IMG/VR virus record: IMGVR_UViG_3300010413_000031
Span: 1-61,999 of that record
Source of the DNA: a virus
DNA length: 61,999 bases
Direction: 5' to 3' (one strand)
Of this stretch, positions 1 to 51,964 are shown piece by piece. A program made the position numbers and the translations under genes. Position 1 is the stretch's first letter, and the number at the start of each line of letters is the position of its first letter. The notes beneath the pieces were generated by a model. It was not told the origin of the DNA and did no database searches. It was given only the letters and a program-made list of their open reading frames with translations.

Positions 1-3000
1 GTAGGCAAGGTAACGAAGGTCAACCTGGATGAGGCCAAGGCTACCGTCAAGCCAGCCGATGGCGCAAGGGCGCGTCACGTTTCCTTCGACGATATTGAGG
101 CTGTGGGCAACTCCGCTCGCATGAAGAAGGAACTGGAGACGGCGGCTGCCTCTGTGCGCAAGGGCGGAGAAGAGAAGACATCCGCGCCTGCGGCCAAGAC
201 TCGCAAGGTCAACAAGAAGACCGGAGAGGCAGTTATCGTAGAGGAAGAGGCAGAGACAGCCGTCGCAACCCGCAGTCCGCGCTCCGGAAAGAAGACCAGG
301 ACCAAGAAGGACAAGCTGGGTAAGAGTTCCAGGGTGGCCCGGCGCGAGGAGGGAGTATCTGAGCCAGAGGCTGTGGCCGATATGGCAGAGGTCAAGGCCA
401 AGGCCAGGGCCGCTCTGGCCAGGGACGTAGGGAAGGAGATCGAGCCAGAGGTGGCTGCGGCCATGGAGGCTACGGACATTGGCGACTACCTCCAGATCCC
501 CGGCCCTAAGAAGTCCAAGTGGACGGTAGAGCTGCTTGAGTTCGTCGAGGGGGGCAAAGCCAGGGTCCGCGTGGTTAAGGGCAGGGGTGCTCAGAAGGGC
601 GACGTCCTTGAGGTCCCCGCCATGGATCTGGTCAAGTACCGCCCGGAGGTTAGGGAGGCCGCCAAGAAGGCTCTGGCTGAGGCCGAGAGGCAGAAGGCGG
701 CTGTAGAGGGCGCGGTAGCTGATATCCAGACCGAACTGGCCAGGAGGCGTGCTGAGCTGCTGAGGGGCGGAGAGATGCCTTACATGGAGGCAGGTCACAC
801 ACCCGAGCCCGGTAACAATGTAGTGTTCTTCAGCGTCCCTGAGGATCTGGCTATAGAGTTCGAGAACATCGTGCTGCGCCAGAAGGCTGGTATGCCTGTC
901 AATCCTATCACCGTGCTCAAGGACCAGAACATTGGCATGCACGTCCTGCCGCAGCCTGAGGATGGAACTTCAGTTCTGTATGCTATGGAGGCTCCGGGCA
1001 ATCTGATGCCGCAGAAGACTGGCAGGGCCCGTCACTTCATCAACGCGCTGAACGATAAGGAGAAGGCGAGGCCGCTGCCCAACACCTACGACACGCCTAT
1101 TCCACTGCCCGACCCGGAGGTAGCCAATAAGGCGCAGTTCTATCGCGTGCCTACACAGCTGCGCAAGGGTTTGGCTGACGTTCATCAGCTGAACGCCATG
1201 ACCAACCAGGAGAAGATAGACTATCTGAAGGCGGCTCTTGCCATGGACTTCCACCTGCCTGAGGAGGTGGGAGACGCCGCTGCCGAGGTTACGGTAGCCG
1301 CTGCCAAGGCCAAGAGGTCCGCTTCTACCGGCGATCAGGCAGCCGCTGTCGAGTCTGTGCGCGAAGCCGAGGCGGCCAAGGCTGATCTGGCTGTAACCCT
1401 GGCTGAGGAGGCTGACTCTGAGCTGGCGGAGATTCGCAAGAGGGCTATGGCAGCCCTGGCGGCAGAGGAAGGAGCGGACGACGCCCCTATCCAGCCTGTC
1501 ACACAGGGTCATTGGGGTAAGGTCCTGCGTAATCTGGCGGCTGTGGAGCCGAACGAGCTACCCGACACCCGAATTGTCCTGACCCATCCTGAGGGCCGTG
1601 GCATCATGGTCATCACAAGGCGTGAGGTGGATGCGCCTATCCATGTAAGCGAGCCGGGAGAGATCCTGGGTGCCACAGTCAAGCGCGATCCCGCTACCCG
1701 CGCCCCGATCACGACCAAGGATGAGGTCTTCGACGTGACGGTGGTCAACCAGAACGACGAGCAGATCCACTTCACCTTCGAGGGCGATCCGCTAGTTGAG
1801 GGCAGGGCGCGTGCGGTCAACGCCATGGATAGGGTGGTGGAGCGCATTCAGGAGAGCCCGTTCGCCCAGTCCGAAGTGCGTTACCTGGGCAACGCCCACT
1901 ACGTACAGCAGGGCGACCAGAAGATGATGGCCAAGATCACCCGTAAGGCCAAGGGGCAGGAGGGTGTCCAGATCGGCTTCTACGAGAAGATGGATGACGG
2001 TACCTGGAGGACCCTATCCAAGAAGCAGCTCCCATACGAGCGCGACTCCGCGAACTATGAGCTGGCTCAGGATTACCTGCACAAGAAGGGTTACAGGCTG
2101 CTGGGTGATCCGGGTATCCACTACTTTAGTCGTCTCAGGCGTGTGCGCGCGAGCGTGCCCGATCCTTCTACTGCCTCCGCTCTGGAGCTGGAGGGTGTCC
2201 ACAAAGCCCTCAAGGAAAGCGTCATGGACCTGATGCTGGACCAGAAGGGTGTGCTGTCCAAGGACCTGCGTGAGTACCTATCGGCCTTCGGTCGTCGCTG
2301 GGTTGATCTAGGTGCCGAGGGCGTACCTTTCAATCCGAAGATCCGTGACGCGCTGGGCGCTGTGACACTGGAGGACCTGCGTCCTCGCACCTTCTCCAGC
2401 TGGGGACGCTCCCTGGGTGGGGGCAGCGTGAGGGGCGTAAGGGGTGGATTCCAGCGTCCTTCTGGAGCCAACGTGGAGGTTGGAGAGAACTTCTTCGAGC
2501 ATGCCCTCTACAGTGGTATGGGATATGATGGTGTCGAGGGTGCCAGCGGTATCGAAGCGGCTGGCAGCAGCCCTAACCTCTCCGGCCCGTGGCCCGAGGA
2601 GGTGTGGATTCGCAACGACCGCAACGTCATGGACCCCGACAAGATCAGGGAATGGCGCGACCTGTTGTATAGGCAGATCGAAGAGGAGCGGTTCGCGGAC
2701 GTGGACGGCATGATGGAGCCGGAGCCTACGGCCCACACTTCCAACCAAGGCTATGTGGTACTGGAGGACGGTACGACTGCCAGGGTGAAGAGCAGGATGG
2801 AGGGAACTCCGGACCTGCTGGTTGAGACCTTTGGTGGCGAGAGCTTCACTGTCCCTAAGGCTGGCACTAAGATAGAGACCGGCACCAAGCGCGATCTCTT
2901 CTGGGCCAAGGTGAAGCGAGTGGCCGAGGGTGATGAGGCAGGTATCCCTGGGCCATTGCCTGTCGGTGCTGGCACACTAGAGCGTGAGCTGGGTCTGCTG

Positions 3001-6000
3001 GGCGTACAGGACAAGAGGCTCGTCGGAGCCGCCCTGCGCGAGGAGCTGGCCAAGGAGATTGATAAGATCCAGCCTGCGGGCGGCAAGGGTCCGTTCAAGG
3101 GCAAGGTCGGGATCAAGGGTGCCCGTCGCTTCACTGGCAGTCAGGAAGCCTATGATCGTGTAGCTCAGATCTACCGCCGCGCCCTGGAGATTGGAGAGGA
3201 CGTAACACAGGATCTGCCCGAGAACCTCAGGCGCCCATTCAAGTGGGCTGTATACAAGCACATGCAGGGTGAGTACGGAGATCATCCTATCTATGACCTA
3301 GCTGCTCGTGCCCTGCTGGACGAGCTGGATCCAGTGGAGCGCGCAAGGCTCAATGACTGGGCCGGTGAGTTCGGACTCCACGGACAGCCAGCCTACGACC
3401 AGGTGAACGAGCTGATCAAGCGCGGCCAGGTGGACTATCAGGCTGCCAAGCTGGCCTTCGAGGTCAAGAACGACCTGGGTGTGCTGGGCTGGTGGGGTGA
3501 TACAGAAATTCCTGGGCGTGTGGCCTTGAAGAAGTACAGGCGAGTCCAGGACCTGAGGACCTATTGGGGTGGACTGGACTTCCACATTCCTCATAAGGCA
3601 GCCGCTCGACAGCCTACGGCCGAGGGTATGATCCGTGACGCCTATAAGGCGGCTGAGATGGAGGCCCGCAGAAGGGACCGTGTCAACAACTTGCTGCTGG
3701 AGCTGCAGAGCTTCGGCATCAAGGACAAGGACATGGTGACCCTACGTAACATGATCGAGACCCATCCTAACTGGGAGACTGCGGCCAAGGCCAATGTGAA
3801 TGCGCGTTTCCAGCGTCCCTACCAGTTGCTCAAGGACTGGTTCGAGGAGACCAGGTATGAGACGATCTGGCTCAAGATGCAGCGCGGCTACCAGGCCCGC
3901 CCGCTGAGGCGCGACCAGTTTGGCAAGCTGCACTGGGAGGACGAGTACCTGATGCACAAGGCCGATCTCAAGAAGCACTTCCCAGAGGGCGAGATCCCCG
4001 AGGACTTCCTGATCATTGATGACGTCAGGGGTCAGCAGGGTATTATGACCCACGAGGAGATCGACAGGTTCGTCCACTATCTGCAGGATCCGGACATCCC
4101 GGACTCTGCCACACTCAAGGCCAAGGCGCCTGAGGACCCGGCCCTCCACAAGTTCGTGGACCAGTTCGACTTCTGGAAGAACTGGAAGATCGATAACTAC
4201 TGGCCTTACATTCACGAGGGCAACACCATCATCTATGAGGTGCTGCCCGATGGTACGGAGGTGACAAGGGGCTTTACCTACGGGCTGATGGATGCTGTCG
4301 ACCTCATTCGTGAGGGCATCAAGATGGAGAAGCTGAGCGCCAACGGTCGGTATGGTATCCGTGAGATCGCCCCGATGCTGGATGACATCATGCAGCAGAC
4401 CATTCCGGTCAAGAAGTACATACAGATCACCGAGGCCATTGCCAAGGCTGTCAACATGGACCCGGATGAGGTCAGTGCGTTGATCACCGGCAAGTACGGA
4501 GCCCTGGCTCCTGGAGCCGCAGGTAAGCGTGCTCCGTTCTTCGCTAATGCGGAGAGGAGGCTTGCTGGTCTCAAGCCTCTCAAGGAAGACCCTCTGGCTG
4601 AGATCCAGATCTATGCAGCCAGGATCGCCCGTGCCCATTACAAGCATGACATCCTGAAGTCCATCGCCAAGTGGACTGAGCTGGACGAGGCTGTCAGTCG
4701 TGCGGCCAATACCGAGCCACTCAGGATGAGGTTCCACCAGGCCGAGCAGAATGGTCCATGGTCGAAGCTGGCCGCCATGACACGCGACCAGCTGCGTGGC
4801 GCTCTGGGCCTCTACACACAGGCCGACCACATGGCCGACTTCGTTCTGGGCCTCAGGAACTTCGCCGCGAAGGCGCCTAAGAACGTGTACAAGATGGTGG
4901 CCAGCGGCGACAAGATGCTGACCCTGGATGAGATCTTCACATGGGCCAACTACTACCAGCCTTACAGCGCCAGGAAGTACGCGGGTGATATCATCGCCAT
5001 CCAGAGCATGATGAAGCTGGGTGCGAACCCTATGTCTGCCTTCGTCAACCTAACGCAGACCCTGACCAACGTAGCTCCATACGTTGGCACGACACGCACG
5101 CTGAAGGCCATCAATGATGCGGGCAGGTTCATCAATGCCGGTCTTCCTGGAGGCCTTGATGTCAATAGCGCGCGGTACGCTGAGATAAAGGGCCTGGTAG
5201 ACTGGGCTGGTATCGAGTACATGCCAGCCAAGCAGCAGGCGGGTATTGGCTGGGCCGATCAGATCGGCAAGCGCGCCCCGAGGCTGGGACGCTCCGCGCT
5301 GGGTGTCGGCTTCGACTTCGCCAACTACTGGAGCATGCGCATGTTCAACGGTGCTGAGCGCACCAACCGTATCAGCACCATGATCGCTGGCTACGGGCAT
5401 GCGGTTGAGAAGGGCATGAGCCACGAGGCCGCCCGAGAGTTCGCCAAGGATCTTGTGACCAAGACCCAGTTCCTGTACACCACACAGGCCATGCCGATGT
5501 TCATGAAGGGACCTATCGGCCGCGTCCTGTTCCAGTTCAAGCCGTTCCTGGTGAACCAGGTGTCGCTGGAGAAGGACATGGTCATGAAGGTCGTCCGCTC
5601 CGGGTTCAAGGATTCCCAGGCCTGGAAGGAGCTGGGCGTACACATGGGCGCATACACCGCATTCGGCGGGCTGCGCGGCCTTGTGAACCACCCGCTGTTC
5701 ATGGTCTGGAATGGACTGGCGGCCCTGTTCGGCTGGAAGTACGCCGAAGACGCCATGCTGGGCGCCAACCGGCACGCCAAGGACGCTAAGACACGCGGCC
5801 TGTTCAAGGGCAGCGAGTACTTCAGCGCCAGGGATGCCCTGGTGCACGGCATTCCGGGGCTGCTGAGCATCTCTATCGGAGACAGGATCGGAGTCAGTGG
5901 GCAGGAGCTGACCCCGGATGACTTCATTCTGGGACCCCACACTACCCTGCTCAAGGACACTTACAGTGCTTTGTGGGGATACCTGAAGGCCTCGCAGGAG

Positions 6001-6621
6001 GAGGGACGAGCGGGCATGGCTGGCTTTGGTGCGGGAGCTGGTCTGGGTATGGTGGTCTCCAAGGGCCGCCCATACGCACCGCTGTTCGCTGGTTTGATGG
6101 GTGCTCTATACTCCAGCAAGCTGAGCAACAGCCCACTTGAGGACTACTTTAGCACGCGCGAGGGCCGTAAGGCCTGGCGCAGCATGGCGCCCACAGCCAT
6201 GAAGAATGGCGAGCGTACGTGGGAGATCATGCAGGGGATGCAGCCACGCGACATCAACTTCCGTCCGCTGCAGCAGCCGTGGGCCTGGAACTCCACACAG
6301 GGGGCTATCACCAGCCTGCTGGGAGCCCAGACCGTCGACGACACCGAGGCCAGGGCCGTATCCAGGGTGCTGGTATCGAGCGGCGAGAACGTACGGGCGC
6401 AGCGAGGTATGTACGCTGAGCAGATGGCCCATGCCATTGTCAGGGGTGACGTGGTCAAGTATCATCAGATAGCCTCTCGCGCCGCCCGCGAGGGTATAGT
6501 ATATGACTATAGTGACCTTCAGAGCCGCATCGAGCGCATGCGCGTACCGGCCATGGAGAGCGTGAGAAAGGCGCAGCCTGTCCAGGCACGCCTGCCGTTT
6601 ATGAAGGGGAAGATCAAGTAA
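1..6621 (+). CDS. Giant internal virion (ejection) protein, PLxRFG-like, 5' end outside window
   Basis: The frame is open from base 1, so the start lies upstream; 2,206 residues are visible. The N-terminal ~150 residues are low complexity (Lys, Glu, Ala). The last third alternates amphipathic and hydrophobic stretches and contains GPIGRVLFQFKPF near residue 1837, which resembles the PLxRFG signature of giant phage polyvalent or internal virion proteins. Such proteins travel in the capsid and are ejected with the DNA. The position just before the lysis genes fits the end of a late virion module that would continue from the tail genes at the other end of the window if the genome is circular or permuted. 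The exact role is inferred. No peptidase or transglycosylase motif was recognised by eye. Confidence 0.7.
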   Translation, partial: VGKVTKVNLDEAKATVKPADGARARHVSFDDIEAVGNSARMKKELETAAASVRKGGEEKTSAPAAKTRKVNKKTGEAVIVEEEAETAVATRSPRSGKKTRTKKDKLGKSSRVARREEGVSEPEAVADMAEVKAKARAALARDVGKEIEPEVAAAMEATDIGDYLQIPGPKKSKWTVELLEFVEGGKARVRVVKGRGAQKGDVLEVPAMDLVKYRPEVREAAKKALAEAERQKAAVEGAVADIQTELARRRAELLRGGEMPYMEAGHTPEPGNNVVFFSVPEDLAIEFENIVLRQKAGMPVNPITVLKDQNIGMHVLPQPEDGTSVLYAMEAPGNLMPQKTGRARHFINALNDKEKARPLPNTYDTPIPLPDPEVANKAQFYRVPTQLRKGLADVHQLNAMTNQEKIDYLKAALAMDFHLPEEVGDAAAEVTVAAAKAKRSASTGDQAAAVESVREAEAAKADLAVTLAEEADSELAEIRKRAMAALAAEEGADDAPIQPVTQGHWGKVLRNLAAVEPNELPDTRIVLTHPEGRGIMVITRREVDAPIHVSEPGEILGATVKRDPATRAPITTKDEVFDVTVVNQNDEQIHFTFEGDPLVEGRARAVNAMDRVVERIQESPFAQSEVRYLGNAHYVQQGDQKMMAKITRKAKGQEGVQIGFYEKMDDGTWRTLSKKQLPYERDSANYELAQDYLHKKGYRLLGDPGIHYFSRLRRVRASVPDPSTASALELEGVHKALKESVMDLMLDQKGVLSKDLREYLSAFGRRWVDLGAEGVPFNPKIRDALGAVTLEDLRPRTFSSWGRSLGGGSVRGVRGGFQRPSGANVEVGENFFEHALYSGMGYDGVEGASGIEAAGSSPNLSGPWPEEVWIRNDRNVMDPDKIREWRDLLYRQIEEERFADVDGMMEPEPTAHTSNQGYVVLEDGTTARVKSRMEGTPDLLVETFGGESFTVPKAGTKIETGTKRDLFWAKVKRVAEGDEAGIPGPLPVGAGTLERELGLLGVQDKRLVGAALREELAKEIDKIQPAGGKGPFKGKVGIKGARRFTGSQEAYDRVAQIYRRALEIGEDVTQDLPENLRRPFKWAVYKHMQGEYGDHPIYDLAARALLDELDPVERARLNDWAGEFGLHGQPAYDQVNELIKRGQVDYQAAKLAFEVKNDLGVLGWWGDTEIPGRVALKKYRRVQDLRTYWGGLDFHIPHKAAARQPTAEGMIRDAYKAAEMEARRRDRVNNLLLELQSFGIKDKDMVTLRNMIETHPNWETAAKANVNARFQRPYQLLKDWFEETRYETIWLKMQRGYQARPLRRDQFGKLHWEDEYLMHKADLKKHFPEGEIPEDFLIIDDVRGQQGIMTHEEIDRFVHYLQDPDIPDSATLKAKAPEDPALHKFVDQFDFWKNWKIDNYWPYIHEGNTIIYEVLPDGTEVTRGFTYGLMDAVDLIREGIKMEKLSANGRYGIREIAPMLDDIMQQTIPVKKYIQITEAIAKAVNMDPDEVSALITGKYGALAPGAAGKRAPFFANAERRLAGLKPLKEDPLAEIQIYAARIARAHYKHDILKSIAKWTELDEAVSRAANTEPLRMRFHQAEQNGPWSKLAAMTRDQLRGALGLYTQADHMADFVLGLRNFAAKAPKNVYKMVASGDKMLTLDEIFTWANYYQPYSARKYAGDIIAIQSMMKLGANPMSAFVNLTQTLTNVAPYVGTTRTLKAINDAGRFINAGLPGGLDVNSARYAEIKGLVDWAGIEYMPAKQQAGIGWADQIGKRAPRLGRSALGVGFDFANYWSMRMFNGAERTNRISTMIAGYGHAVEKGMSHEAAREFAKDLVTKTQFLYTTQAMPMFMKGPIGRVLFQFKPFLVNQVSLEKDMVMKVVRSGFKDSQAWKELGVHMGAYTAFGGLRGLVNHPLFMVWNGLAALFGWKYAEDAMLGANRHAKDAKTRGLFKGSEYFSARDALVHGIPGLLSISIGDRIGVSGQELTPDDFILGPHTTLLKDTYSALWGYLKASQEEGRAGMAGFGAGAGLGMVVSKGRPYAPLFAGLMGALYSSKLSNSPLEDYFSTREGRKAWRSMAPTAMKNGERTWEIMQGMQPRDINFRPLQQPWAWNSTQGAITSLLGAQTVDDTEARAVSRVLVSSGENVRAQRGMYAEQMAHAIVRGDVVKYHQIASRAAREGIVYDYSDLQSRIERMRVPAMESVRKAQPVQARLPFMKGKIK

Positions 6622-13264: not shown

Positions 13265-13285
13265 CCTGTAACGGCCAATTGTGCA

Positions 13286-13316
13286 GAGGGGGTTGACACG
13301 GTCGGCCCCCTCTTTT
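13286..13316 (+). terminator. Rho-independent terminator before the tRNA array
   Basis: GAGGGGG at 13286-13292 pairs with CCCCCTC at 13306-13312, an inner GAC/GTC pair extends the stem, and TTTT follows. It closes the recombination operon. Confidence 0.8.
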
Positions 13317-13361: not shown

Positions 13362-13434
13362 GGGCCTGTGGCGCAACTGGGAGCGCAACGCCCTTGCAAG
13401 GCGAAGGTTGAGGGTTCGAGTCCCTCCTGGTCCA
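13362..13434 (+). tRNA. tRNA-Ala(UGC)
   Basis: Cloverleaf with anticodon loop CTTGCAA. Acceptor GGGCCTG/CTGGTCC has one T-T mismatch; the T-loop is normal. CCA is not encoded. First gene of the array. Confidence 0.9.
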
Positions 13435-13438
13435 CTAC

Positions 13439-13521
13439 GTAGCGGCTGGCATGGGCGAGCCAAGCGGGCTGTAACCCCGTGGCCTCTGGTCTTAGTGGTT
13501 CGACTCCACTCTGCTACACCA
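13439..13521 (+). tRNA. tRNA-Tyr(GUA)
   Basis: Acceptor GTAGCGG/CTGCTAC, anticodon loop CTGTAAC and the long variable arm expected for bacterial Tyr. CCA is encoded. Confidence 0.9.
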
Positions 13522-13522
13522 T

Positions 13523-13604
13523 GGTCAGGTGGTGGAACTGGCAGACACGCAGGTCTCAGAAACCTGTGCCCTTGGGCGTGAGGGTTCGACCCCCTCCCTG
13601 ACTA
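13523..13604 (+). tRNA. tRNA-Leu(CAG)
   Basis: Anticodon loop CTCAGAA, long variable arm as in class II Leu, acceptor GGTCAGG/CCTGACT. It reads CUG, a codon abundant in the virion genes. Confidence 0.9.
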
Positions 13605-13608
13605 CTAA

Positions 13609-13680
13609 GCCTCCGAAGCACAGTGGATGTGCAACGGTCTCCTAAACCGAAGGACGCTGGTTCGACTCCAGCCGGAGGCT
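13609..13680 (+). tRNA. tRNA-Arg(CCU)
   Basis: Acceptor GCCTCCG/CGGAGGC, anticodon loop CTCCTAA. It reads AGG, which is used very often in this phage. Confidence 0.9.
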
Positions 13681-13684
13681 CTTT

Positions 13685-13757
13685 AGCCCTGTGGCGCAGT
13701 GGTGAGCGCGTCTGTCTTACAAACAGAGGGTCGTCGGTTCGAATCCGACCGGGGCTA
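13685..13757 (+). tRNA. tRNA-Val(UAC)
   Basis: Acceptor AGCCCTG/CGGGGCT, anticodon stem TCTGT/ACAGA, loop CTTACAA, normal T-arm. Confidence 0.9.
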
Positions 13758-13760
13758 TAT

Positions 13761-13836
13761 GGGGCGGTCGTCTAGTGGCCAAGGATCTCGGGCCCTCAAC
13801 CCGAAGACCGGAGTTCGATCCTCCGTCGCCCTACCA
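13761..13836 (+). tRNA. tRNA-Glu(CUC)
   Basis: Anticodon loop CCCTCAA in stem TCGGG/CCCGA; CCA encoded. It reads GAG only; no UUC counterpart is present. Confidence 0.88.
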
Positions 13837-13837
13837 T

Positions 13838-13910
13838 GCGGCTGTAGCTCAGCTGGCAGAGCGTCACGTTGCCAACGTGAAGGTCGCGGGTTCAATCCCC
13901 GCTAGCCGCT
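13838..13910 (+). tRNA. tRNA-Gly(GCC)
   Basis: Acceptor GCGGCTG/TAGCCGC, anticodon stem TCACG/CGTGA, loop TTGCCAA. Confidence 0.9.
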
Positions 13911-13916
13911 CTTGAT

Positions 13917-13988
13917 GCGCTCGTAGCGTAACAGGAAACGTACCAGCCTTCCAAGCTGGGGTTGCCGGTTCGGTTCCGGCCGGGCGCT
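13917..13988 (+). tRNA. tRNA-Gly(UCC)
   Basis: Acceptor GCGCTCG/CGGGCGC, anticodon stem CCAGC/GCTGG, loop CTTCCAA. Second Gly tRNA; together with GCC it covers all Gly codons. Confidence 0.9.
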
Positions 13989-13992
13989 CTGA

Positions 13993-14066
13993 CCCTCGGT
14001 GACTGAGTGGATAAGCGCAGGTCTGCAAAGCCTGTAACGTGGGTTCGAATCCCACCCGAGGGTCCA
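13993..14066 (+). tRNA. tRNA-Cys(GCA)
   Basis: Acceptor CCCTCGG/CCGAGGG, anticodon loop CTGCAAA, discriminator T and encoded CCA. Confidence 0.88.
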
Positions 14067-14067
14067 T

Positions 14068-14140
14068 GGGGGTATGGCGCAATTGGTAGCGCAGGTGGCT
14101 CTTACCCATCAGGTTGTAGGTTCGATCCCTACTGCCCCCT
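14068..14140 (+). tRNA. tRNA-Lys(CUU)
   Basis: Acceptor GGGGGTA/TGCCCCC, anticodon loop CTCTTAC. It reads AAG. Confidence 0.88.
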
Positions 14141-14141
14141 C

Positions 14142-14216
14142 TGGCGCTTAGCTCAGTGGTAGAGCACTCGGCTTATATCCGAGCGGGCATGGGTTCGAAT
14201 CCCATAGCGCCCACCA
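14142..14216 (+). tRNA. tRNA-Ile(UAU) with a U1-C72 mismatch
   Basis: Anticodon stem CTCGG/CCGAG with loop CTTATAT gives UAU directly, so AUA can be read without lysidine modification of a CAU tRNA. Acceptor TGGCGCT/AGCGCCC has an unpaired 1-72 position. CCA is encoded. Confidence 0.85.
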
Positions 14217-14220
14217 ATAC

Positions 14221-14291
14221 TGGTGCTTGGCATAGTGGCCGTGCAGCCGGTTTTTACCCGGCAGAGAGGGGTTCGATTCCTCTAGCACCAA
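14221..14291 (+). tRNA. tRNA-Lys(UUU)
   Basis: Acceptor TGGTGCT/AGCACCA, anticodon stem GCCGG/CCGGC, loop TTTTTAC. Second Lys tRNA. Confidence 0.88.
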
Positions 14292-14294
14292 TAG

Positions 14295-14366
14295 TGGCGT
14301 GTAGCTCAGCGGTAGAGCGTCCGTCTGATACGCGGGATGCCAGTGGTTCGAATCCACTCACGCCAA
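14295..14366 (+). tRNA. tRNA-Ile(GAU)
   Basis: Acceptor TGGCGTG/CACGCCA, anticodon loop CTGATAC with wobble-rich stem TCCGT/GCGGG. Confidence 0.88.
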
Positions 14367-14369
14367 TAC

Positions 14370-14444
14370 GGCACCTTAGCTCAGCGGTAGAGCGACTGGC
14401 TGTTAACCAGTGGGTCCATGGTTCGAATCCATGAGGTGTCGCCA
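14370..14444 (+). tRNA. tRNA-Asn(GUU)
   Basis: Acceptor GGCACCT/AGGTGTC, anticodon stem ACTGG/CCAGT, loop CTGTTAA, discriminator G, CCA encoded. Confidence 0.9.
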
Positions 14445-14445
14445 T

Positions 14446-14518
14446 GCCTTCGTGGTGTAACTGGCAGCACGCCTGTCTTGTAAACAGGTAGGTCGGGGTT
14501 CGAATCCTCGCGGGGGCT
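14446..14518 (+). tRNA. tRNA-Thr(UGU)
   Basis: Acceptor GCCTTCG/CGGGGGC with G-T wobbles, anticodon stem CCTGT/ACAGG, loop CTTGTAA. Confidence 0.88.
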
Positions 14519-14519
14519 C

Positions 14520-14595
14520 TGCAGGGTGGAGCAATGGTTAGCTCGCCTGGCTCATAACCAGGAGGTTGCGGGTTCGAGTCCCGTCCCTGCTACCA
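14520..14595 (+). tRNA. tRNA-Met(CAU), initiator-like
   Basis: Anticodon loop CTCATAA. The acceptor TGCAGGG/CCCTGCT leaves positions 1 and 72 unpaired (U-U), and the D-stem GAGC/GCTC has the A11-U24 pair; both are hallmarks of bacterial initiator tRNA. Only two of the three conserved G-C pairs of the initiator anticodon stem are present (CCTGG/CCAGG). CCA encoded. Confidence 0.82.
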
Positions 14596-14596
14596 C

Positions 14597-14671
14597 GGTC
14601 TCATAGGGGAGCTGGCCGTCCCCGCTGGCCTGTCACGCCGGAGATCGCGGGTTCGAATCCCGCTGGGACCG
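14597..14671 (+). tRNA. tRNA-Asp(GUC)
   Basis: Acceptor GGTCTCA/TGGGACC, anticodon loop CTGTCAC in stem CTGGC/GCCGG, an unusual GGGG/CCCC D-stem, discriminator G. Confidence 0.88.
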
Positions 14672-14676
14672 CCTAC

Positions 14677-14747
14677 GCAGGGCACGTTGGGGAACGTACC
14701 AGGCTCCAACCCTGGAAGAGTGGGTTCGACTCCTACGCCCTGTGCCA
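14677..14747 (+). tRNA. tRNA-Trp(CCA), atypical D-arm
   Basis: Acceptor GCAGGGC/GCCCTGT, anticodon stem CCAGG/CCTGG, loop CTCCAAC. Position 8 is A rather than U, and the D-arm is short (CGTT/AACG). Discriminator G and CCA encoded. Confidence 0.82.
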
Positions 14748-14748
14748 T

Positions 14749-14820
14749 AGAGGCGTGGTGTAAGGGCAACACGCTTGGCTCTGAACCAAGAGATTGTAGG
14801 TTCGATCCCTACCGCCTCTT
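14749..14820 (+). tRNA. tRNA-Gln(CUG)
   Basis: Acceptor AGAGGCG/CGCCTCT, anticodon stem CTTGG/CCAAG, loop CTCTGAA. It reads CAG only. Confidence 0.9.
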
Positions 14821-14824
14821 CTGT

Positions 14825-14911
14825 GGAAAGCGAGCAGCAAGGTGCGCAATCGGCTTGCTAAGCCGAGAGGGCCGTAAGGCTCGCTGGGTTCGATTCCCAG
14901 GCTTTCCTCCA
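14825..14911 (+). tRNA. tRNA-Ser(GCU)
   Basis: Acceptor GGAAAGC/GCTTTCC, anticodon loop TTGCTAA, long class II variable arm, CCA encoded. Confidence 0.88.
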
Positions 14912-14913
14912 TT

Positions 14914-14986
14914 CGGGAGCTGGCGCAATTGGCAGCGCACCTGGTTTGGGGCCAGGGGGTTCGGGGTTCAAGTCCCCGGTTCCCGA
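14914..14986 (+). tRNA. tRNA-Pro(UGG)
   Basis: Acceptor CGGGAGC/GTTCCCG starting with the C1-G72 pair typical of Pro; anticodon stem CCTGG/CCAGG, loop TTTGGGG. Confidence 0.9.
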
Positions 14987-14988
14987 CT

Positions 14989-15062
14989 GTGGCCATGGTG
15001 TAATGGTAGCCCACCGGGTCGTGACCCCGGAGGCGTGGGATCGAAACCCACTGGTCACCCCA
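14989..15062 (+). tRNA. tRNA-His(GUG), atypical T-loop
   Basis: Acceptor GTGGCCA/TGGTCAC, anticodon stem CCGGG/CCCGG, loop TCGTGAC, discriminator C73 as for His. The T-loop is ATCGAAA, with A in place of the conserved T54, and the base before position 1 is T, so the usual G-1 is not encoded. CCA encoded. Confidence 0.8.
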
Positions 15063-15063
15063 A

Positions 15064-15146
15064 GGAAGGTAGGGCACGGTGGCGTGCAACTGGTCTAGAA
15101 AACCAGCCCGGCCTTACGGCTGAGGGTTCGACTCCTTTACCTTCCT
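15064..15146 (+). tRNA. tRNA-Ser(AGA), A34 anticodon
   Basis: Acceptor GGAAGGT/ACCTTCC, anticodon stem CTGGT/ACCAG with 7-base loop CTAGAAA, giving anticodon AGA, and a class II variable arm. An A at position 34 is rare in bacteria outside Arg(ACG). Confidence 0.82.
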
Positions 15147-15150
15147 CTAT

Positions 15151-15223
15151 GCCCCTATAGCTCAGAGGACTAGAGCGCGTGGCTACGGACCACGGTGCGA
15201 GGGTTCGAATCCTTCTAGGGGCT
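15151..15223 (+). tRNA. tRNA-Arg(ACG)
   Basis: Acceptor GCCCCTA/TAGGGGC, anticodon stem CGTGG/CCACG, loop CTACGGA. It normally needs host TadA to convert A34 to inosine. Confidence 0.9.
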
Positions 15224-15227
15224 CTCT

Positions 15228-15300
15228 GCGAAGGTAGCTCAGCTGGTAGAGCACTGGTCTGAAAAGCCAGGTGTCGGTGGTTCGAATCCACCCCTTCGTA
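15228..15300 (+). tRNA. tRNA-Phe(GAA)
   Basis: Acceptor GCGAAGG/CCTTCGT, anticodon stem CTGGT/GCCAG, loop CTGAAAA. Last gene of the 25-tRNA array. Confidence 0.9.
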
Positions 15301-15357
15301 CTAGGGGCAGGACGATGGGATTGGGGAGCGCGTCCCTTGGGCCCCACCAGCCGATGC

Positions 15358-15813
15358 TCAGCTAGTCGGTTCCGTTGACGCCACGGCTGTCCCTATTATC
15401 TTCTGGAGGTACACGGCGCCTTTGTAGGCCCACTCCGGATTTGCGGGGACATAATGACGGAAGCCACGACTGATCATGCAGTTGATACTGGCCACGTTCT
15501 CCAGCCAGGTGTACGTTACAATGCGCTGGAACCCTTCTTTCTTTGCCCATCTGAGGACTGTGTCCAACAGTCGCTTGCCCAGCCCCAGTCCCTGATATGG
15601 GGGCAACACTCCATATCTATGGAGGTAGAGGGCAGTCCCTTCCTGCATGAAGTCCCAAAGCTCAGTTGGGTAGAGAGAGGCAAAACCTACTGGTTCACCG
15701 CTCGCGTCCTTTACAAGCCAGTGATGACCGCCGTCGGGCATCTCGCTGTGGGGGAATATTAGCTGGTTCAGGGCCAGGATGGTTTGCCTGTCGTCTGTCT
15801 TACGAATCCGCAT
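15358..15813 (-). CDS. GNAT-family N-acetyltransferase
   Basis: 151 residues on the minus strand, one of only two such genes. The acetyl-CoA loop is clear: GVLPPYQGLGLGKRLL (residues ~68-83, Q-x-x-G-x-G/A). It is followed by a helix, a strand (RIVTYTW), and an Asn then SRGFR typical of the GNAT motif B end. The acceptor substrate cannot be told from sequence: protein N-terminus, small molecule, peptide antibiotic or aminoacyl-tRNA are all possible. It converges on the tRNA array, so its transcript would end against tRNA-Phe. No antitoxin-like gene adjoins it, which argues against a simple TacT-type toxin pair. Confidence 0.85.
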   Translation of the reverse strand: MRIRKTDDRQTILALNQLIFPHSEMPDGGHHWLVKDASGEPVGFASLYPTELWDFMQEGTALYLHRYGVLPPYQGLGLGKRLLDTVLRWAKKEGFQRIVTYTWLENVASINCMISRGFRHYVPANPEWAYKGAVYLQKIIGTAVASTEPTS

Positions 15814-16255: not shown

Positions 16256-16661
16256 CGGAGCAGCCAACATCCAGCGTACACTCCGGGAGCTGGAGCGTAG
16301 AGGGTGGGACGCTCAATCCGTCGAGTGTTACATAGCAGCGGCCCGGCGCACCCGAGACCTGTTCGGGTTCGGGGACGTGCTGGCCTTCGAGCGTGGGAAC
16401 ATCTACATCATACAGGTCACATCCTACTCCGGCCTGTCCGCACGTAAGCGGAAGATACTGGAGTCGGAAGTGGCCAGAGCATGGGTGGGGGAGGCGGGCG
16501 GTAGGATACTCCTGCACGGGTGGAGGCGAGGCAAGCCACCTAAGGGCAGGAAGCGAGGTAAGTGGCAGCTTACTGAGAGGGAGATTACGGACGGTGACTT
16601 CTACGAAAGTAGGGCCCGAGCTAAACGCAAGAAGTCCGGGAAGGGTGCTGCTCGTAGGTAG
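16248..16661 (+). CDS. Hjr/VRR-NUC-like PD-(D/E)XK nuclease
   Basis: 137 residues from ATG 16248. The core reads ERRGWDAQSVECYI, then RDLFGFGDVLAFE, then IIQVTS, then RKRK. This is the D...(E/Q)-x-(T/K) arrangement of small phage PD-(D/E)XK enzymes related to archaeal Hjr and VRR-NUC nucleases (Asp in FGD, Gln-Val-Thr in place of Glu-x-Lys). The C-terminus is strongly basic. A Holliday-junction or flap-cleaving role fits its place directly before the polymerase gene, which it overlaps by 17 bases. The Q in place of E is common in this group but leaves activity to be shown. Confidence 0.65.
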   Translation: MASGAANIQRTLRELERRGWDAQSVECYIAAARRTRDLFGFGDVLAFERGNIYIIQVTSYSGLSARKRKILESEVARAWVGEAGGRILLHGWRRGKPPKGRKRGKWQLTEREITDGDFYESRARAKRKKSGKGAARR

Positions 16662-18318
16662 GGACCCAGGAGAAACGGAGGTACGGATAGGCCGTCCCTT
16701 CGTGGGGGAAGCTGGACAAGTGTTGGACAGCGTGCTGCCTGCGTCCGGGCTGCAGCGCACCGACGTGAACATCACCAACGTGGTGCCCTGGAGGCCTAAG
16801 GACAACGAGTTCAAGAACCACGAGCCGTGGCAGATTGAGCGGGGCATGCAGGAGCTGGATGACCTGATCTACGAGCTGCGCCCTCAGATCATAGTGGCGT
16901 TCGGCAACGAGGCGGCATGGGCTACCATACCCAACTGGCCGGGGAATGACATATCCCACGCGCACGGCATCATGGAGAGGCGTGGGTACTTCTTCAAGGG
17001 CAAGCATGGGACATGGGTACTGGCCACCCTGCATCCCGCCAACGTCAAGTACCAGGTCATGCCCAATCTCATGCTGCTGGATCTGGATATGCGACGGTTG
17101 GACCTGTGGCTGCGTGGGAAGCTGCCTAGGGATGAGTGGCCTGAGATCAAGGTTGCGAGGGAGGCTGGGGATCTGGTCAAGCTGATGAAGGATCAGGTAC
17201 TGGCTACGGACATAGAGCTGAAGTGGGGCGGCAGGGAGGTACTGTGTGTCGGGTTCTGCGGGGACGATCTAGAGCCAGTCGTGGTACCGGATAACCTGCT
17301 GCCCCTAGCTTATGAGGTACTGGCCAACGGGAATCCCAAGGTCCTGCATCATGGGCAGTTCGACATCTATATGCTGCAGGAAGAGAAGGGGATACCCATT
17401 CACGGCCAGCTGCACGACACTATGTTCCAGCACTGGGCCCTGTTCCCGGAGCTGGCGTCGAAGGAGGAGACGGGCGGGGAGTACTCGGACCTGAGCAAGG
17501 CCACACGCATGACACGCAAGGGGCTAGCCTTCCTCATGAGCATGTATGGTAACTGGCCGTGGTGGAAGGACTACCCGGACGAGGACCACCCCAAGTTCAG
17601 GGAGCTGATGTTCATTCTCAACGGCAGAGACTGCTATGCCACACGCTGGCTACACTCGCTGCAGATAGCCAAGATCTACGAGGAGGCCGTGGACGAGCAG
17701 TACTACGAGGCCATGCGCATGGTGCCTATCGCCATCAAGATGCAGAGGCGGGGCATGCTGGTGAACGATGAACTGAGGCAGAAGAGGATAGAGATACTGA
17801 CCGAGAGGTTGACAGCCGCAGAAACAGACATAGTATTGGCAGGACTGAGCTATATCTGGGAGCACGAACTAGCCTCCTACAGGAAGATCAGGAGCTGCCC
17901 CTGCTGCCGTGGGTCGCTGCCCGGCAGAAAGCCGAGGCGCAAGACCAGGCAGTGCTGGAGCTGTGCTGGGTACGAAAAGGTGCCAAGCAAGGCTCAGCTG
18001 GTGTGGCAGCTGACTGCGGATGAGGGCGTGCATGTACTAACAGACCTGCCAATGGAGGAGTATCTAGCACGGCGGGAGGCGTGGCATGAGAAAGTGCGCA
18101 AGACCAAGAAGGCCGTGCTTGAGCGCTACATCCTCAAGCCCTGCAACTTCTGTGGCGGTAAGGGGTACATTGGATGGTATGAGTTCAATCCGTTCTCCAA
18201 CCAGCAGCTAGGCACGCTGCTGTACGATGTGATAGGGGTACCCAAGAGCCTGCTGGGGAAGAAGCGGCAGGTGGATGAGAACACCTTGGGCAGGGTCCTG
18301 CATTGGGCCAGGAGCTAA
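16645..18318 (+). CDS. DNA polymerase A, N-terminal half: uracil-DNA glycosylase + 3'-5' exonuclease + Cys-rich insertion
   Basis: 557 residues from GTG 16645; upstream sequence in this frame lies inside the previous gene and is not polymerase-like. Residues 1-165 match family 4 uracil-DNA glycosylase: GRDPGETE, GRPFVGEAGQ, and a late LATLHPAN with the catalytic-loop His-Pro. Next is a DnaQ-like exonuclease: DIE (D189/E191), HHGQFD, and LNGRDCY. The start of the polymerase thumb follows. Inside it are seven cysteines (C418, C420, C421, C437, C440, C500, C503) in two zinc-ribbon-like groups. The frame stops after NTLGRVLHWARS, where family A polymerases continue into motif A. The palm and fingers are encoded 700 bases downstream in a separate gene. 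Confidence 0.85.
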   Translation: MLLVGRDPGETEVRIGRPFVGEAGQVLDSVLPASGLQRTDVNITNVVPWRPKDNEFKNHEPWQIERGMQELDDLIYELRPQIIVAFGNEAAWATIPNWPGNDISHAHGIMERRGYFFKGKHGTWVLATLHPANVKYQVMPNLMLLDLDMRRLDLWLRGKLPRDEWPEIKVAREAGDLVKLMKDQVLATDIELKWGGREVLCVGFCGDDLEPVVVPDNLLPLAYEVLANGNPKVLHHGQFDIYMLQEEKGIPIHGQLHDTMFQHWALFPELASKEETGGEYSDLSKATRMTRKGLAFLMSMYGNWPWWKDYPDEDHPKFRELMFILNGRDCYATRWLHSLQIAKIYEEAVDEQYYEAMRMVPIAIKMQRRGMLVNDELRQKRIEILTERLTAAETDIVLAGLSYIWEHELASYRKIRSCPCCRGSLPGRKPRRKTRQCWSCAGYEKVPSKAQLVWQLTADEGVHVLTDLPMEEYLARREAWHEKVRKTKKAVLERYILKPCNFCGGKGYIGWYEFNPFSNQQLGTLLYDVIGVPKSLLGKKRQVDENTLGRVLHWARS

Positions 18319-18325
18319 CTATGGC
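18312..18325 (+). repeat. Left copy of 14-base repeat flanking the polymerase insert
   Basis: GAGCTAACTATGGC here and GAGTTGACTATGGC at 19009-19022 match at 12 of 14 bases. Both include a GAG ribosome-site core, a 6-base spacer and an ATG. This copy also supplies the stop codon of the N-terminal polymerase half. Confidence 0.75.
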
Positions 18326-18998
18326 TAACTACAACGGCTATAACACTTCGACAGGCTACATACAGTTTGCTAATACTACTACTGCGGGCACTGGTAGTAA
18401 CACTACTACGTGGGGAAACAGCAGTAGTGGCCTGTGGGTGCCCGAGTATCCACTGAATAGCAAGCCCATGAAGTTCGTGGGTGGTGCGCTGCATGGGCAG
18501 ATCAAGAAAGTCCCTGTTGTACATGACAGGATAGACGTGCCTGTTATGCAGCCATTTCCATACACGCTGGAAGACTCGGGCAAGGCCGCCGAGTATGTGT
18601 ATGAGAGCTATGATCTGATACACCACAAGGGCGAGTCATTCTTCGTACTACGTGAGCTATGGGAGGCCGAGCGTCCTGCTGTAGGGTTCTACAAGAACCC
18701 AAATAGGGACGAGTACCACATCATCGTCGTCACTACCAAGCCGGGCATTCTGGGGTTCAGTATCACAAGAAAGATGTATCACGCCCTAATGGAGGGACAG
18801 TTCCTGGAGCAGTTCCATAACGACCTCAAGGAAGTGAAGATGGGTGACCTGAACGAACTCATCTACATGAAGATGGCCGAGCGCTATGTTCCCAAGCCTG
18901 TGTTTCATGACGCAAAGGAGGACGACGAGCCGGTGCCTGAGAAGTGGGAGCTGGACGAGGAAGAGCTGGGTGACCCTGTGATGATCCCGGCGGCTTAA
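18321..18998 (+). CDS. Unknown 225-residue protein inserted between the polymerase halves
   Basis: ATG 18321 lies 6 bases after AGGAG. The N-terminus is unusual: about 35 residues rich in Asn, Thr, Gly and Ser, then an alpha/beta region (EDSGKAAEYVYESYDLIHHK, YHIIVVTTKPGILGFSITRK) and a very acidic end (DEEELGD). It shows no HNH, GIY-YIG, LAGLIDADG or intein splice motif, so it is not a recognisable homing element. It separates family A polymerase regions that are contiguous in other polymerases. It might be a polymerase cofactor or clamp-like subunit, or a neutral insertion. Function unknown. Confidence 0.75.
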   Translation: MANYNGYNTSTGYIQFANTTTAGTGSNTTTWGNSSSGLWVPEYPLNSKPMKFVGGALHGQIKKVPVVHDRIDVPVMQPFPYTLEDSGKAAEYVYESYDLIHHKGESFFVLRELWEAERPAVGFYKNPNRDEYHIIVVTTKPGILGFSITRKMYHALMEGQFLEQFHNDLKEVKMGDLNELIYMKMAERYVPKPVFHDAKEDDEPVPEKWELDEEELGDPVMIPAA

Positions 18999-18999
18999 C

Positions 19000-20037
19000 A
19001 TGCCACACGAGTTGACTATGGCCTGGCATAAAGCGAGGAAGCTGCAGATCCTTGAGATCCTGGAGCCTTACATGGTGGCTAAGCGGGACAGGACCGTGAT
19101 CGGCCACTATGAAAGGATAGAGCCGGGACCTGATGGTAGGGTGAGGACGGAGCCAAACCCCATAGGCACCAGTACGGGCAGGTTCAGCTCAAGCGAGAGC
19201 CCGCTCGATCCGTATTCCACCAACCTGCAGAACCTGAACAAGAAGGTGGCGCAGATCGATCCCGTCTATGCCATACGTGACTGCATCATTCCCGATCCGG
19301 GCTATGTGCTGTGGGCGGCAGACTACGCCGGGGCTGAGGCCCTGCTAGCCGCTGCCTACCAGCAGGACTGGGAGATGTACCAGATGCTGTTGGATGGAAA
19401 GGATGTGCATACATGGCACGCCTCCATCTTCTTCGACATGCCTGAGGAGCAGGTAGGCAAGGGCACGATCTACAGGCAGATAGCCAAGAACATAGGCTAC
19501 GGAGGGCAGTACAAGGCCAGCATATGGAAGCTGACCGAGACCATCAACAGGGAGGCCGAGCACACGGGCGTCAGGGTCACGCAGGCGCAGGTCGAGACGG
19601 CCTACACTCGCTGGTTGCAGCTGCACCCTGTCGAGGAGTGGTGGGAGAACACACGCCAGGAACTGAACACCCCGCCCAAGAACAGCCTGCGTAACTGTTT
19701 CGGGTTCAGGCGCAGGTTCTTCGCCCCCGATCCTGAGAAGCGGTTGAAGGAGGGGCTGGCCTTCTACCCACAAAGCACGGTGGCCTCCTGTATCAAGCGG
19801 GCCATGGTGAGAGTGGATGAGGAGCTGGACGATGGGCAGGAGATCATGCAGATCATGCAGATCCATGACGAGATCTTCGGGCAGGTGAAGGAGAACAAGG
19901 TGGACAAGTACATGCCTGAGATCGTGAAGATTCTGGAAGAGCCGTTCGAGATCCACGGCAAGGAGGTCTGGATTCCTGCCGACGCCAGCCTAGGTATGAG
20001 CTGGGGGAGCATGCGAGCATGGCAAAAGGCAGCCTAA
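19000..20037 (+). CDS. DNA polymerase A, C-terminal half (palm, fingers, thumb end)
   Basis: 345 residues from ATG 19000; ATG 19018 is an alternative with a better ribosome site. The catalytic motifs are intact: GTSTGRFSSS, motif A WAADYAGAEALLA (Asp at ~107), the O-helix RQIAKNIGYGGQY (Arg, Lys and Tyr positions), and motif C MQIHDEIF near residue 287. So the polymerase active site is complete but lies on a different polypeptide from the proofreading domain. The two halves must associate, or be joined by some unseen means, to work as one enzyme. The gene overlaps the next by 19 bases. Confidence 0.88.
   Translation: MPHELTMAWHKARKLQILEILEPYMVAKRDRTVIGHYERIEPGPDGRVRTEPNPIGTSTGRFSSSESPLDPYSTNLQNLNKKVAQIDPVYAIRDCIIPDPGYVLWAADYAGAEALLAAAYQQDWEMYQMLLDGKDVHTWHASIFFDMPEEQVGKGTIYRQIAKNIGYGGQYKASIWKLTETINREAEHTGVRVTQAQVETAYTRWLQLHPVEEWWENTRQELNTPPKNSLRNCFGFRRRFFAPDPEKRLKEGLAFYPQSTVASCIKRAMVRVDEELDDGQEIMQIMQIHDEIFGQVKENKVDKYMPEIVKILEEPFEIHGKEVWIPADASLGMSWGSMRAWQKAA
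19009..19022 (+). repeat. Right copy of 14-base repeat flanking the polymerase insert
   Basis: GAGTTGACTATGGC, 12/14 identical to 18312-18325. In frame it reads ELTMA, the same peptide that the left copy would read one frame over. Confidence 0.75.
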
Positions 20038-26944: not shown

Positions 26945-27040
26945 TCGTAGCACAGGAGAAGGGTCAGCCTATGGCTTAGCGGTCAGAACAGGCCGATAGA
27001 TCGGATGTGAATCCGCTATGCTACGCATGTAACACCCGCT

Positions 27041-27073
27041 GGGGGCAGGCCCATGTCTGCCCCCTCTCTTTTT
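27041..27073 (+). terminator. Strong rho-independent terminator
   Basis: GGGGGCAG pairs perfectly with CTGCCCCC across an 8-base loop, followed by TCTCTTTTT. It separates the gene at 26411 from the E1-like locus. Confidence 0.88.
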
Positions 27074-27093
27074 CATACGCGCAGGAGGCAACA

Positions 27094-28737
27094 ATGAAGG
27101 TAGCTCAAGAGCCTAAGACGAAGGACGAACAGCAGGCGAAGAACCTGAGACTGAGCAGCTATATCTGCCCCATCTGCCAGAGCTACATGGCTAGGCAGCA
27201 CTACACGAAGCAGGGCACTCGCTATGAGATCGAGTACAATATGTGTGGCTGCCCGCCTGTCTATGGTCTGGTCTGGCGCAACGACAGTCAGCGACAGGGC
27301 AGGTACTACCACAACCGATGGCTGTGGATGCCTAACGGCAAGTCGCAGCTATACCATGGCCAGAGGTCGCCGGGTCGATGGATCAACGTGCATACCGATG
27401 AGCCCGTAGCCAAGCCAGACTGGATGCGATGGCTCAAGGTGCCCATCATCATTGACCGCTCGTCGGGGCGGGAGTTCAAGGCATTGGTGGAGATCGAAGG
27501 TGAACAGCGGCTTGTCGATTGCATCGGCACGAACAGGCCGGGGCTGTACCATGCCTTGTGTGTGAATCCGCCTGTAGACTACTGGGAAGGGCTGCCAGGT
27601 TTAAGTGCGAAGAGACTGGCCATGTATAAGGAAAAGCTGAGGGTTGTGAATAAGCATCTGGTGATCGTGCCCAAGGCACATCGCAAGAGGTATGCTCGCA
27701 CCCCTCATGCCAAGGGGGTCACCCTAACCACGATCCATACCAAGGATCAGGGTCGGGGCAAGTATGAGGAGTTCATCCCCCGCTGGTCAGTCAGGGAGTT
27801 CGGCATAGAGAAGTGGCAGTTCGTCTCCAAGGATGTGATAGAGGACGACGGCAAGAAGCGAGAGACGATCCTCAGATACAAGAAGCCGCACGAGAGCGAT
27901 GCCCTGATTGGTCAGCAGTCAGGCGCAAATGCATGGTGTCATACTCCAATACACCCCTGTGAGTGGGAGACTGACCCACGCCAAGGGTACAAGGCCGTCC
28001 GAGCACACCTTGATGACTACGGCTTCGAGCACTTGCACATAGATTGGATACAGCGCAGGTTCCTGTTCTACACGTCTGACGGGAACCGCAAGACTCAGGT
28101 AGGACAGATCAAGCACCCCGACCCTATGTGGGGCAGCGCCAAGAGAATCCTGTTGTGGGCCGACGAGTGCTGGGCCATGCAGCTCAGTGCTCAGGCAGAT
28201 AATGGGGTGTGGCGCATGGTCACGCCAGGTATGCTGTTCGTGGCTGATGACATGACATTCATCGCCACCTACCAGTGCCTGCGAATAGGTCAGAGCCTGA
28301 CTGAGTATCGAGCGGGCATCAATCTCTATGCCCCTCACGCGGCACCCATGTCATTGGCTGATTTCATCACTGGTCCGCTATCTGATTACTGGGACAGCAA
28401 GGGCAACATCAAGTTGATCCGGCCCCAGATTCAGATGGTCAGGGCCAAGGAAGTGGCTACGACTGGCGACCTACAGAAGGCGCTGCTGGATAAGATACAG
28501 AAGAAGTATGAGGGCTTCCTGCTCATACAGGGCTGGGTCATATCCTATGTCACCTGCCCTCTCTGCGGTTACCATTTGCACCACTTGGTCTATGACAAGG
28601 AGAAGCAGGCCATCAAGGAGTGCAGCAACTGTGGCAAGGCAGGTATCGAGCTGAGTATGGAGGCAACCACCCACTTCATTACATCAGAGGGGCCACTCAA
28701 CAAGGTGCTGTCCAAGAAAGGAGCCAAGATAGCATGA
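27094..28737 (+). CDS. Large protein with zinc-ribbon-like ends, coupled to the E1-like gene
   Basis: 547 residues from ATG 27094 (GGAGG upstream); the upstream open frame runs through a terminator and is rejected. Cys pairs lie at both ends: CPIC and CGC near residues 24-55, and CPLC with CSNC near 490-515, each zinc-ribbon-like. A segment TPGMLFVADDMTFIATYQ leading to GINLY loosely recalls the strand order around the active site of bacterial E2-like proteins, but I see no cysteine at the expected place, so that reading is speculative. Its TGA overlaps the ATG of the ThiF gene (ATGA), so the two are made together. Confidence 0.7.
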   Translation: MKVAQEPKTKDEQQAKNLRLSSYICPICQSYMARQHYTKQGTRYEIEYNMCGCPPVYGLVWRNDSQRQGRYYHNRWLWMPNGKSQLYHGQRSPGRWINVHTDEPVAKPDWMRWLKVPIIIDRSSGREFKALVEIEGEQRLVDCIGTNRPGLYHALCVNPPVDYWEGLPGLSAKRLAMYKEKLRVVNKHLVIVPKAHRKRYARTPHAKGVTLTTIHTKDQGRGKYEEFIPRWSVREFGIEKWQFVSKDVIEDDGKKRETILRYKKPHESDALIGQQSGANAWCHTPIHPCEWETDPRQGYKAVRAHLDDYGFEHLHIDWIQRRFLFYTSDGNRKTQVGQIKHPDPMWGSAKRILLWADECWAMQLSAQADNGVWRMVTPGMLFVADDMTFIATYQCLRIGQSLTEYRAGINLYAPHAAPMSLADFITGPLSDYWDSKGNIKLIRPQIQMVRAKEVATTGDLQKALLDKIQKKYEGFLLIQGWVISYVTCPLCGYHLHHLVYDKEKQAIKECSNCGKAGIELSMEATTHFITSEGPLNKVLSKKGAKIA

Positions 28738-45516: not shown

Positions 45517-45524
45517 GGGGAACG

Positions 45525-45725: not shown

Positions 45726-45735
45726 GAGTCGATAG

Positions 45736-48868: not shown

Positions 48869-48876
48869 GGGGAGTT

Positions 48877-49095: not shown

Positions 49096-49135
49096 GCTAT
49101 CAGCGTGTACACGAACCATTTCATAGGAGTTAGTC

Positions 49136-49411: not shown

Positions 49412-49434
49412 GGTAACAAGGAGGAGCAACCATT

Positions 49435-50451: not shown

Positions 50452-50483
50452 TACTCCCACTGCTCTTTCGAGGGTAGTGCGCA

Positions 50484-50505: not shown

Positions 50506-50532
50506 TACTTGACAAGGCCCATTGCCGTACTG

Positions 50533-51940: not shown

Positions 51941-51964
51941 CCTGGGGCCTAAGGAGGTAAAACC

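Follow-up and report, generated by a model that had tools for sequence, protein, structure and literature searches.

The viral contig IMGVR_UViG_3300010413_000031 of IMG/VR (61,999 bases, classed linear, 58% G+C), which was analysed over its full length and is referred to here as the window, carries a compact array of 25 tRNA genes at positions 13362–15301 of the plus strand, in which all 20 amino acids are nominally represented by anticodon. We found that this array is not a stand-alone decoding set, as most leucine codons and the codons GAA, CAA and AGA need host tRNAs. Internal AUG codons most likely need a host tRNA too, the only tRNA with a CAU anticodon being, very probably, of the initiator type. 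The array is likely to constitute a broad supplementary tRNA pool which would function beside that of the host.

A dense array of 25 tRNA genes

ARAGORN, run on the entire 61,999 bases, found 25 tRNA genes in the window, all on one strand. The earlier note on this DNA had read the same 25 genes by eye, with isotypes and anticodons identical to those assigned by ARAGORN; it gave spacers of 0–8 bases, which the ARAGORN coordinates correct to 0–5 bases. The genes are arranged head to tail along the main coding strand and occupy 1,890 of the 1,940 bases of the array. With 25 genes in 1.94 kb, the array qualifies as a viral tRNA gene cluster, defined as at least 15 genes at a density of at least two per kb (PMC6409571).

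Twenty-two of the 25 genes exceed the gathering score of Rfam RF00005 (29 bits), with scores of 35.8–73 bits, and tRNA-Ser(AGA) is a 23rd match lying just under this cut-off (25.8 bits). The remaining two, tRNA-Tyr and tRNA-Ser(GCU), which have long variable arms, were not reported by Rfam, yet were found to be complete cloverleaves on parsing. Furthermore, ARAGORN returned no tRNA match in 300 dinucleotide shuffles of the array segment. The ARAGORN assignment, the Rfam scores and the empty shuffles identify the array as a cluster of genuine cloverleaf genes and rule out a chance or pseudogene origin.

The window covers only part of a larger genome. Its last 18.5 kb (43528–61999) recur, with 99.9–100% identity, in a second viral contig (L019/L020, 25,834 bases). 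This contig runs 7,362 bases past the end of the window without returning to the window's start, which rules out a complete genome of 62 kb. Because of this extension the genome must be at least about 69.4 kb long. No tRNA gene was found in the 7,362-base extension.

The tRNA-Met gene

The tRNA-Met(CAU) gene (14520–14595, plus strand), which has A73 and an encoded CCA, was parsed and compared with bacterial and phage tRNAs. It has U1/U72, G2:C71, C3:G70, A11:U24, U29:A41, G30:C40 and G31:C39. Bacterial initiator tRNAs are characterised by a 1x72 mismatch, G2:C71, C3:G70, A11:U24 and three G:C pairs at 29–31:39–41 (PMC7949028), and the elements recognised by the formyltransferase are the 1-72 mismatch and R11:Y24 (PMC9976931). 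The window tRNA shows the mismatch, as U1/U72, the R11:Y24 pair, as A11:U24, and both G2:C71 and C3:G70, together with two of the three anticodon-stem G:C pairs (30:40 and 31:39); the pair at 29:41 is U:A, as it is in the tRNA-fMet of Caulobacter phage CcrBL9.

The 1x72 mismatch alone is no proof of an initiator, because it is shared by tRNA-Ile(UAU) of the same array (U1/C72) and by tRNA-Ile(GAU) of phages of the Beephvirinae. The A11:U24 pair was present in seven of 91 tRNAs parsed alike and in no known elongator, its carriers being the window tRNA-Met, the annotated Escherichia coli initiators metZ, metW and metV, the annotated tRNA-fMet of CcrBL9 and one tRNA-Met of unspecified type each from Sphingomonas phage PAU and Pseudomonas phage D3. 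The E. coli elongators metT and metU, unlike the window tRNA, have G1:C72 and C11:G24. Judged on the full set of features, we are therefore highly confident that the gene at 14520–14595 encodes an initiator-type tRNA, which would most likely support translation initiation. It follows that the array should hold no elongator tRNA-Met, and none was found encoded in the available sequence. The claim of the earlier note that all 20 amino acids are covered thus stands for isotypes, but not for methionine in elongation, given that the sole CAU tRNA is of the initiator type.

It could be argued that this tRNA acts in both initiation and elongation, its initiator features being weakened by U1/U72 and U29:A41, so that methionine would be covered after all. 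Formylation-compromised initiator tRNAs can indeed take both roles in E. coli (PMC7949028), and the presence of U:A instead of G:C at 29:41 is in line with this idea. However, every formylation determinant that was checked is present (1x72 mismatch, G2:C71, C3:G70 and A11:U24), and in CcrBL9, which carries a separate elongator-type CAU tRNA, the annotated tRNA-fMet likewise shows U1/U72 and U29:A41. We consider a dual role improbable.

Codon coverage

Codon coverage was assessed on 59 open reading frames (ORFs; 16,154 codons) chosen on the plus strand by a mechanical, length-greedy procedure without curation, with 5,388 of the codons belonging to the late region, taken from 43.9 kb onwards. 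Under strict wobble, with the tRNA-Met used as initiator only, the array reads 38 of the 61 sense codons, corresponding to 71.7% of all codons and 72.5% of late codons. Ordinary wobble reads overall approximately 72–74% of codons, and allowing inosine gives 75.3% (76.3% in the late region). If every U34 reads all four codons of its family box, 50 of the 61 sense codons are covered (90.1% of all codons, 91.4% of late codons), and under the most generous rule, in which both U34 and A34 read all four and tRNA-Met serves in both roles, coverage reaches 53 of 61 (94.1% and 95.4%). Leu CUC, CUU, CUA, UUG and UUA, Glu GAA, Gln CAA and Arg AGA are unread even then. Decoding by the array is therefore not self-sufficient, as the number of unread sense codons varies between 8 and 23 with the wobble rule and the role given to tRNA-Met. 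None of the 59 ORFs is fully readable under four wobble rules, whether AUG is allowed or not, and a single one is under the most generous rule. All called ORFs from 43,957 onwards, the late region, contain unread codons as well as internal AUG, those for terminase, portal and capsid included.

In late genes CUG accounts for 57% of Leu codons, GAG for 88% of Glu, CAG for 96% of Gln and AAG for 94% of Lys, and the C34 tRNAs of the array fit these four codons. Similarly, tRNA-Arg(CCU) fits AGG, which is used in late genes more often than any other Arg codon (31%), and tRNA-Ile(UAU) reads AUA, which makes up 13–20% of Ile codons. The exact cognate codons of the U34 tRNAs for Ala, Val, Pro and Thr are the rarest of their families or nearly so (GCA 12%, GUA 19%, CCA 14% and ACA 19%). 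It had been suggested in the earlier note that the anticodons often match heavily used G-ending codons; compared with the codon table, this was confirmed for Leu, Glu and Gln and extends to Lys, but is selective, in view of the rare cognate codons in Ala, Val, Pro and Thr.

Individual tRNA genes and unusual bases

All genes of the array were identified by ARAGORN and by parsing, on the plus strand. The array begins with tRNA-Ala(UGC) (13362–13435), in which G3:U70 is present, followed by tRNA-Tyr(GUA) with its long variable arm (13439–13521), tRNA-Leu(CAG) (13523–13605), which is the sole Leu tRNA and reads CUG according to the codon table, tRNA-Arg(CCU) (13609–13681), tRNA-Val(UAC) (13684–13758), tRNA-Glu(CUC) (13761–13836), tRNA-Gly(GCC) (13838–13911), tRNA-Gly(UCC) (13917–13989) and tRNA-Cys(GCA) (13993–14066). 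Two Lys and two Ile genes alternate in the next segment, namely tRNA-Lys(CUU) (14068–14141), the mismatched tRNA-Ile(UAU) (14142–14216), tRNA-Lys(UUU), whose anticodon loop is UUUUUAC (14221–14291), and tRNA-Ile(GAU) (14295–14366). They precede tRNA-Asn(GUU) (14370–14444) and tRNA-Thr(UGU) (14446–14519), which adjoins the tRNA-Met gene. Downstream of the latter lie tRNA-Asp(GUC) (14597–14673), tRNA-Trp(CCA) (14677–14747), which has the lowest Rfam score above the cut-off (35.8 bits), tRNA-Gln(CUG) (14749–14821), the sole Gln tRNA, reading CAG, tRNA-Ser(GCU) (14825–14911), tRNA-Pro(UGG) (14914–14987), tRNA-His(GUG) (14989–15062), tRNA-Ser(AGA) (15064–15147), tRNA-Arg(ACG) (15151–15224) and tRNA-Phe(GAA) (15228–15301). 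Both tRNA-Ser(AGA) and tRNA-Arg(ACG) have A34, and inosine in the latter would presumably need the host TadA.

Position 33 is nearly universally U in tRNAs. In tRNA-Glu(CUC) and tRNA-His(GUG) it is replaced by C33, and bases other than U33 are also found in a few tRNAs of phages RosePharie and D3. The tRNA-His gene lacks an encoded G-1, as do the tRNA-His genes of the Beephvirinae, G-1 being a bacterial identity element of tRNA-His (PMC9976931). Moreover, U73 is present in both Arg tRNAs, tRNA-Lys(CUU), tRNA-Thr, tRNA-Gln and both Ser tRNAs. These unusual bases may lower charging or may reflect the synthetases of the host.

Function of the array

Because its sole tRNA-Met is of the initiator type and many codons are left unread, the array would top up, rather than replace, the tRNAs of the host. 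A plausible course of events is that the whole array is transcribed, probably, as one precursor, which would be cut by host RNases, with host enzymes adding CCA to those tRNAs whose genes lack it. The products would then top up host tRNAs for preferred codons such as CUG, GAG, CAG, AAG and AGG, and the pool could partly make up for host tRNAs that are lost late in infection or to tRNA-cutting enzymes. The near-identical anticodon repertoires of the Beephvirinae argue for such a supplementary role. Weighing against it are the assessment of the supplementary character from phage sequence only, the unusual bases (C33, U73 and the missing G-1), which could make several of the genes poor substrates, and the location of at least 7.4 kb of the genome outside the window; the extension seen carries no tRNA, but parts beyond it could hold an elongator tRNA-Met or a further Leu tRNA.

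The earlier note went further and proposed that the 25 tRNAs could translate the phage genes unaided after destruction of the host tRNAs. The presence of 20 of 20 isotypes by anticodon, and of several anticodons which suit the commonest codons, speaks for this proposal. However, no ORF can be decoded under four rules and only one of 59 under the most generous, the tRNA-Met is initiator-type, and among the proteins scanned none was recognised as a tRNA ligase, a CCA-adding enzyme, TadA or another product for tRNA processing, maturation or repair. Full replacement is thus strongly disfavoured, and we regard it as very improbable; what survives of the proposal is a supplementary role, which is plausible also under tRNA-cutting defence. 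We see little probability, too, in a near-complete kit of one own initiator and 24 elongators that would sustain initiation if host tRNA-fMet were cut, for example by VapC-type toxins, or that would contain one weakened initiator with a dual role.

Two further explanations concern the reason for which such tRNAs would be kept. Compensation for codons that are commoner in the phage than in its host is a possibility that we hold tentatively, given that AGG and AUA are heavily used for a genome of 58% G+C and that such a trend exists in Xanthomonas phage XacN1 (PMC5852040); nevertheless, this is judged from the codon usage of the phage, and the G34 tRNAs for Phe, Tyr, Asp, Asn, His and Cys duplicate those of any bacterium. 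Nuclease evasion, a hypothesis published for mycobacteriophages (van den Berg et al. 2023, PMC10264068), holds that changes in the anticodon loop resist host anticodon nucleases, so that phage tRNAs survive cutting. The odd loops of tRNA-Glu(CUC) and tRNA-His(GUG), with C33, and of tRNA-Lys(UUU), with UUUUUAC, would be consistent with evasion, but most loops of the array look ordinary and, the host not being identified, no loop could be matched to a known cut site. In addition, tRNA-fMet is reported to be commonly avoided by enterobacterial phages, and Ser(aga) by mycobacteriophages (van den Berg et al. 2023, PMC10264068), whereas the array holds both a tRNA of the fMet type and tRNA-Ser(AGA), although this avoidance was described for other phages. 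On balance we find nuclease evasion doubtful as the reason for this array, and a supplementary pool is the reading that we favour.

Genomic context

The window encodes an endolysin, a PD-(D/E)XK exonuclease, a Sak4-like annealing protein and parts of a DNA polymerase, as well as a large terminase, a portal and a major capsid protein. When compared with 50,697 phage records, terminase, capsid and polymerase had only distant relatives (approximately 20–30% identity) and the portal had none. Viral contigs scanned with the polymerase, Sak4, exonuclease and terminase led back to the same phage (L019) and otherwise gave just two weak Sak4 matches, neither of them accompanied by tRNAs, bacterial genomes searched with the terminase gave no match, and tRNA pattern searches found no second array of this kind.

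Between the upstream gene and the array lies a terminator-like hairpin (13285–13313, plus strand) of 13 pairs followed by TTTAGTTTGG, a consensus match of a kind which is less frequent in the real sequence than in shuffles. Directly after the array, on the opposite strand, there is a GNAT acetyltransferase gene (15358–15813); it matches generic acetyltransferases only, which gives no support to an AtaT-like tRNA-acetylating toxin. DNA polymerase A appears to be split over separate ORFs (16393–20037), the first of which has a uracil-DNA glycosylase domain (Pfam UDG, residues 84–220) and a match to a polymerase PHROG; a 231-aa ORF without assignment follows, and then a separate polymerase ORF. 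Elsewhere, a ThiF/E1-like gene (28620–29495) with weak matches to E1-type enzymes, including a PRTRC ThiF family, is flanked by two large ORFs without assignment (27007–30795), and a 2,172-aa protein (103–6621) weakly matches phage proteins of very large size, one of them annotated as DarB-like antirestriction.

Comparison with known systems

All-isotype arrays are already known, also from a small phage in public records, and the window array is a further member of this kind. Streptomyces phage Stella (OP751154.1, Beephvirinae, 46.5 kb) has 21 tRNAs of all 20 isotypes, and both Stella and RosePharie (OP021678.1) carry tight head-to-tail arrays of 21 tRNAs in 46-kb genomes, with 19 of the 21 anticodons in common with the window, among them the unusual Ser(AGA) as well as Glu(CUC), Gln(CUG), Lys(CUU) and Arg(ACG). 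The Met tRNA of the Beephvirinae has a 1x72 mismatch, as in the window, but U11:A24; their Leu tRNA is UAG, their Thr tRNA AGU, and their gene order is unlike that of the window array. Except for one weak metallophosphoesterase match, no protein homology was found between the window and RosePharie. Common descent of the arrays does not follow from their likeness, given that their genes stand in a different order and that the phage proteins are not related.

The initiator-type tRNA also has counterparts in other phages. The tRNA-fMet of CcrBL9 has A11:U24, U1/U72, U29:A41 and two G:C pairs, all as in the window tRNA-Met, which furthermore resembles the tRNA-Met of PAU in A11:U24 and a U/U mismatch at 1x72, and that of D3 in A11:U24 and a 1x72 mismatch. 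In the stretches read, these genes lie outside any 25-gene all-isotype array, and CcrBL9 and PAU, unlike the window, have additional CAU tRNAs.

Morgado and Vicente (2019) described 228 viral genomes with clusters of 15–37 tRNAs, eight of which had all 20 isotypes (PMC6409571). The window array belongs to the same density and size class as these clusters, although it comes from an uncultured, divergent phage to which nothing in the phage records searched is closely related. The Xanthomonas jumbo phage XacN1 encodes 56 tRNAs for all 20 amino acids in a genome of 384,670 bp (PMC5852040) and shares nominal 20-amino-acid coverage with the window, but has tRNA-processing genes, of which none was recognised here. 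Shigella phage Sf14 has 26 tRNAs for 19 amino acids, and nuclease evasion was judged unlikely there (PMC12482277). The present case adds a compact all-isotype array from a divergent uncultured phage to this list, and indicates that isotype counts overstate the capacity of such arrays, as with an initiator-type tRNA-Met and single C34 tRNAs the phage still depends on its host for essential codons. A check of initiator against elongator features, followed by codon coverage, would be worth doing on the other arrays reported to serve 20 amino acids.

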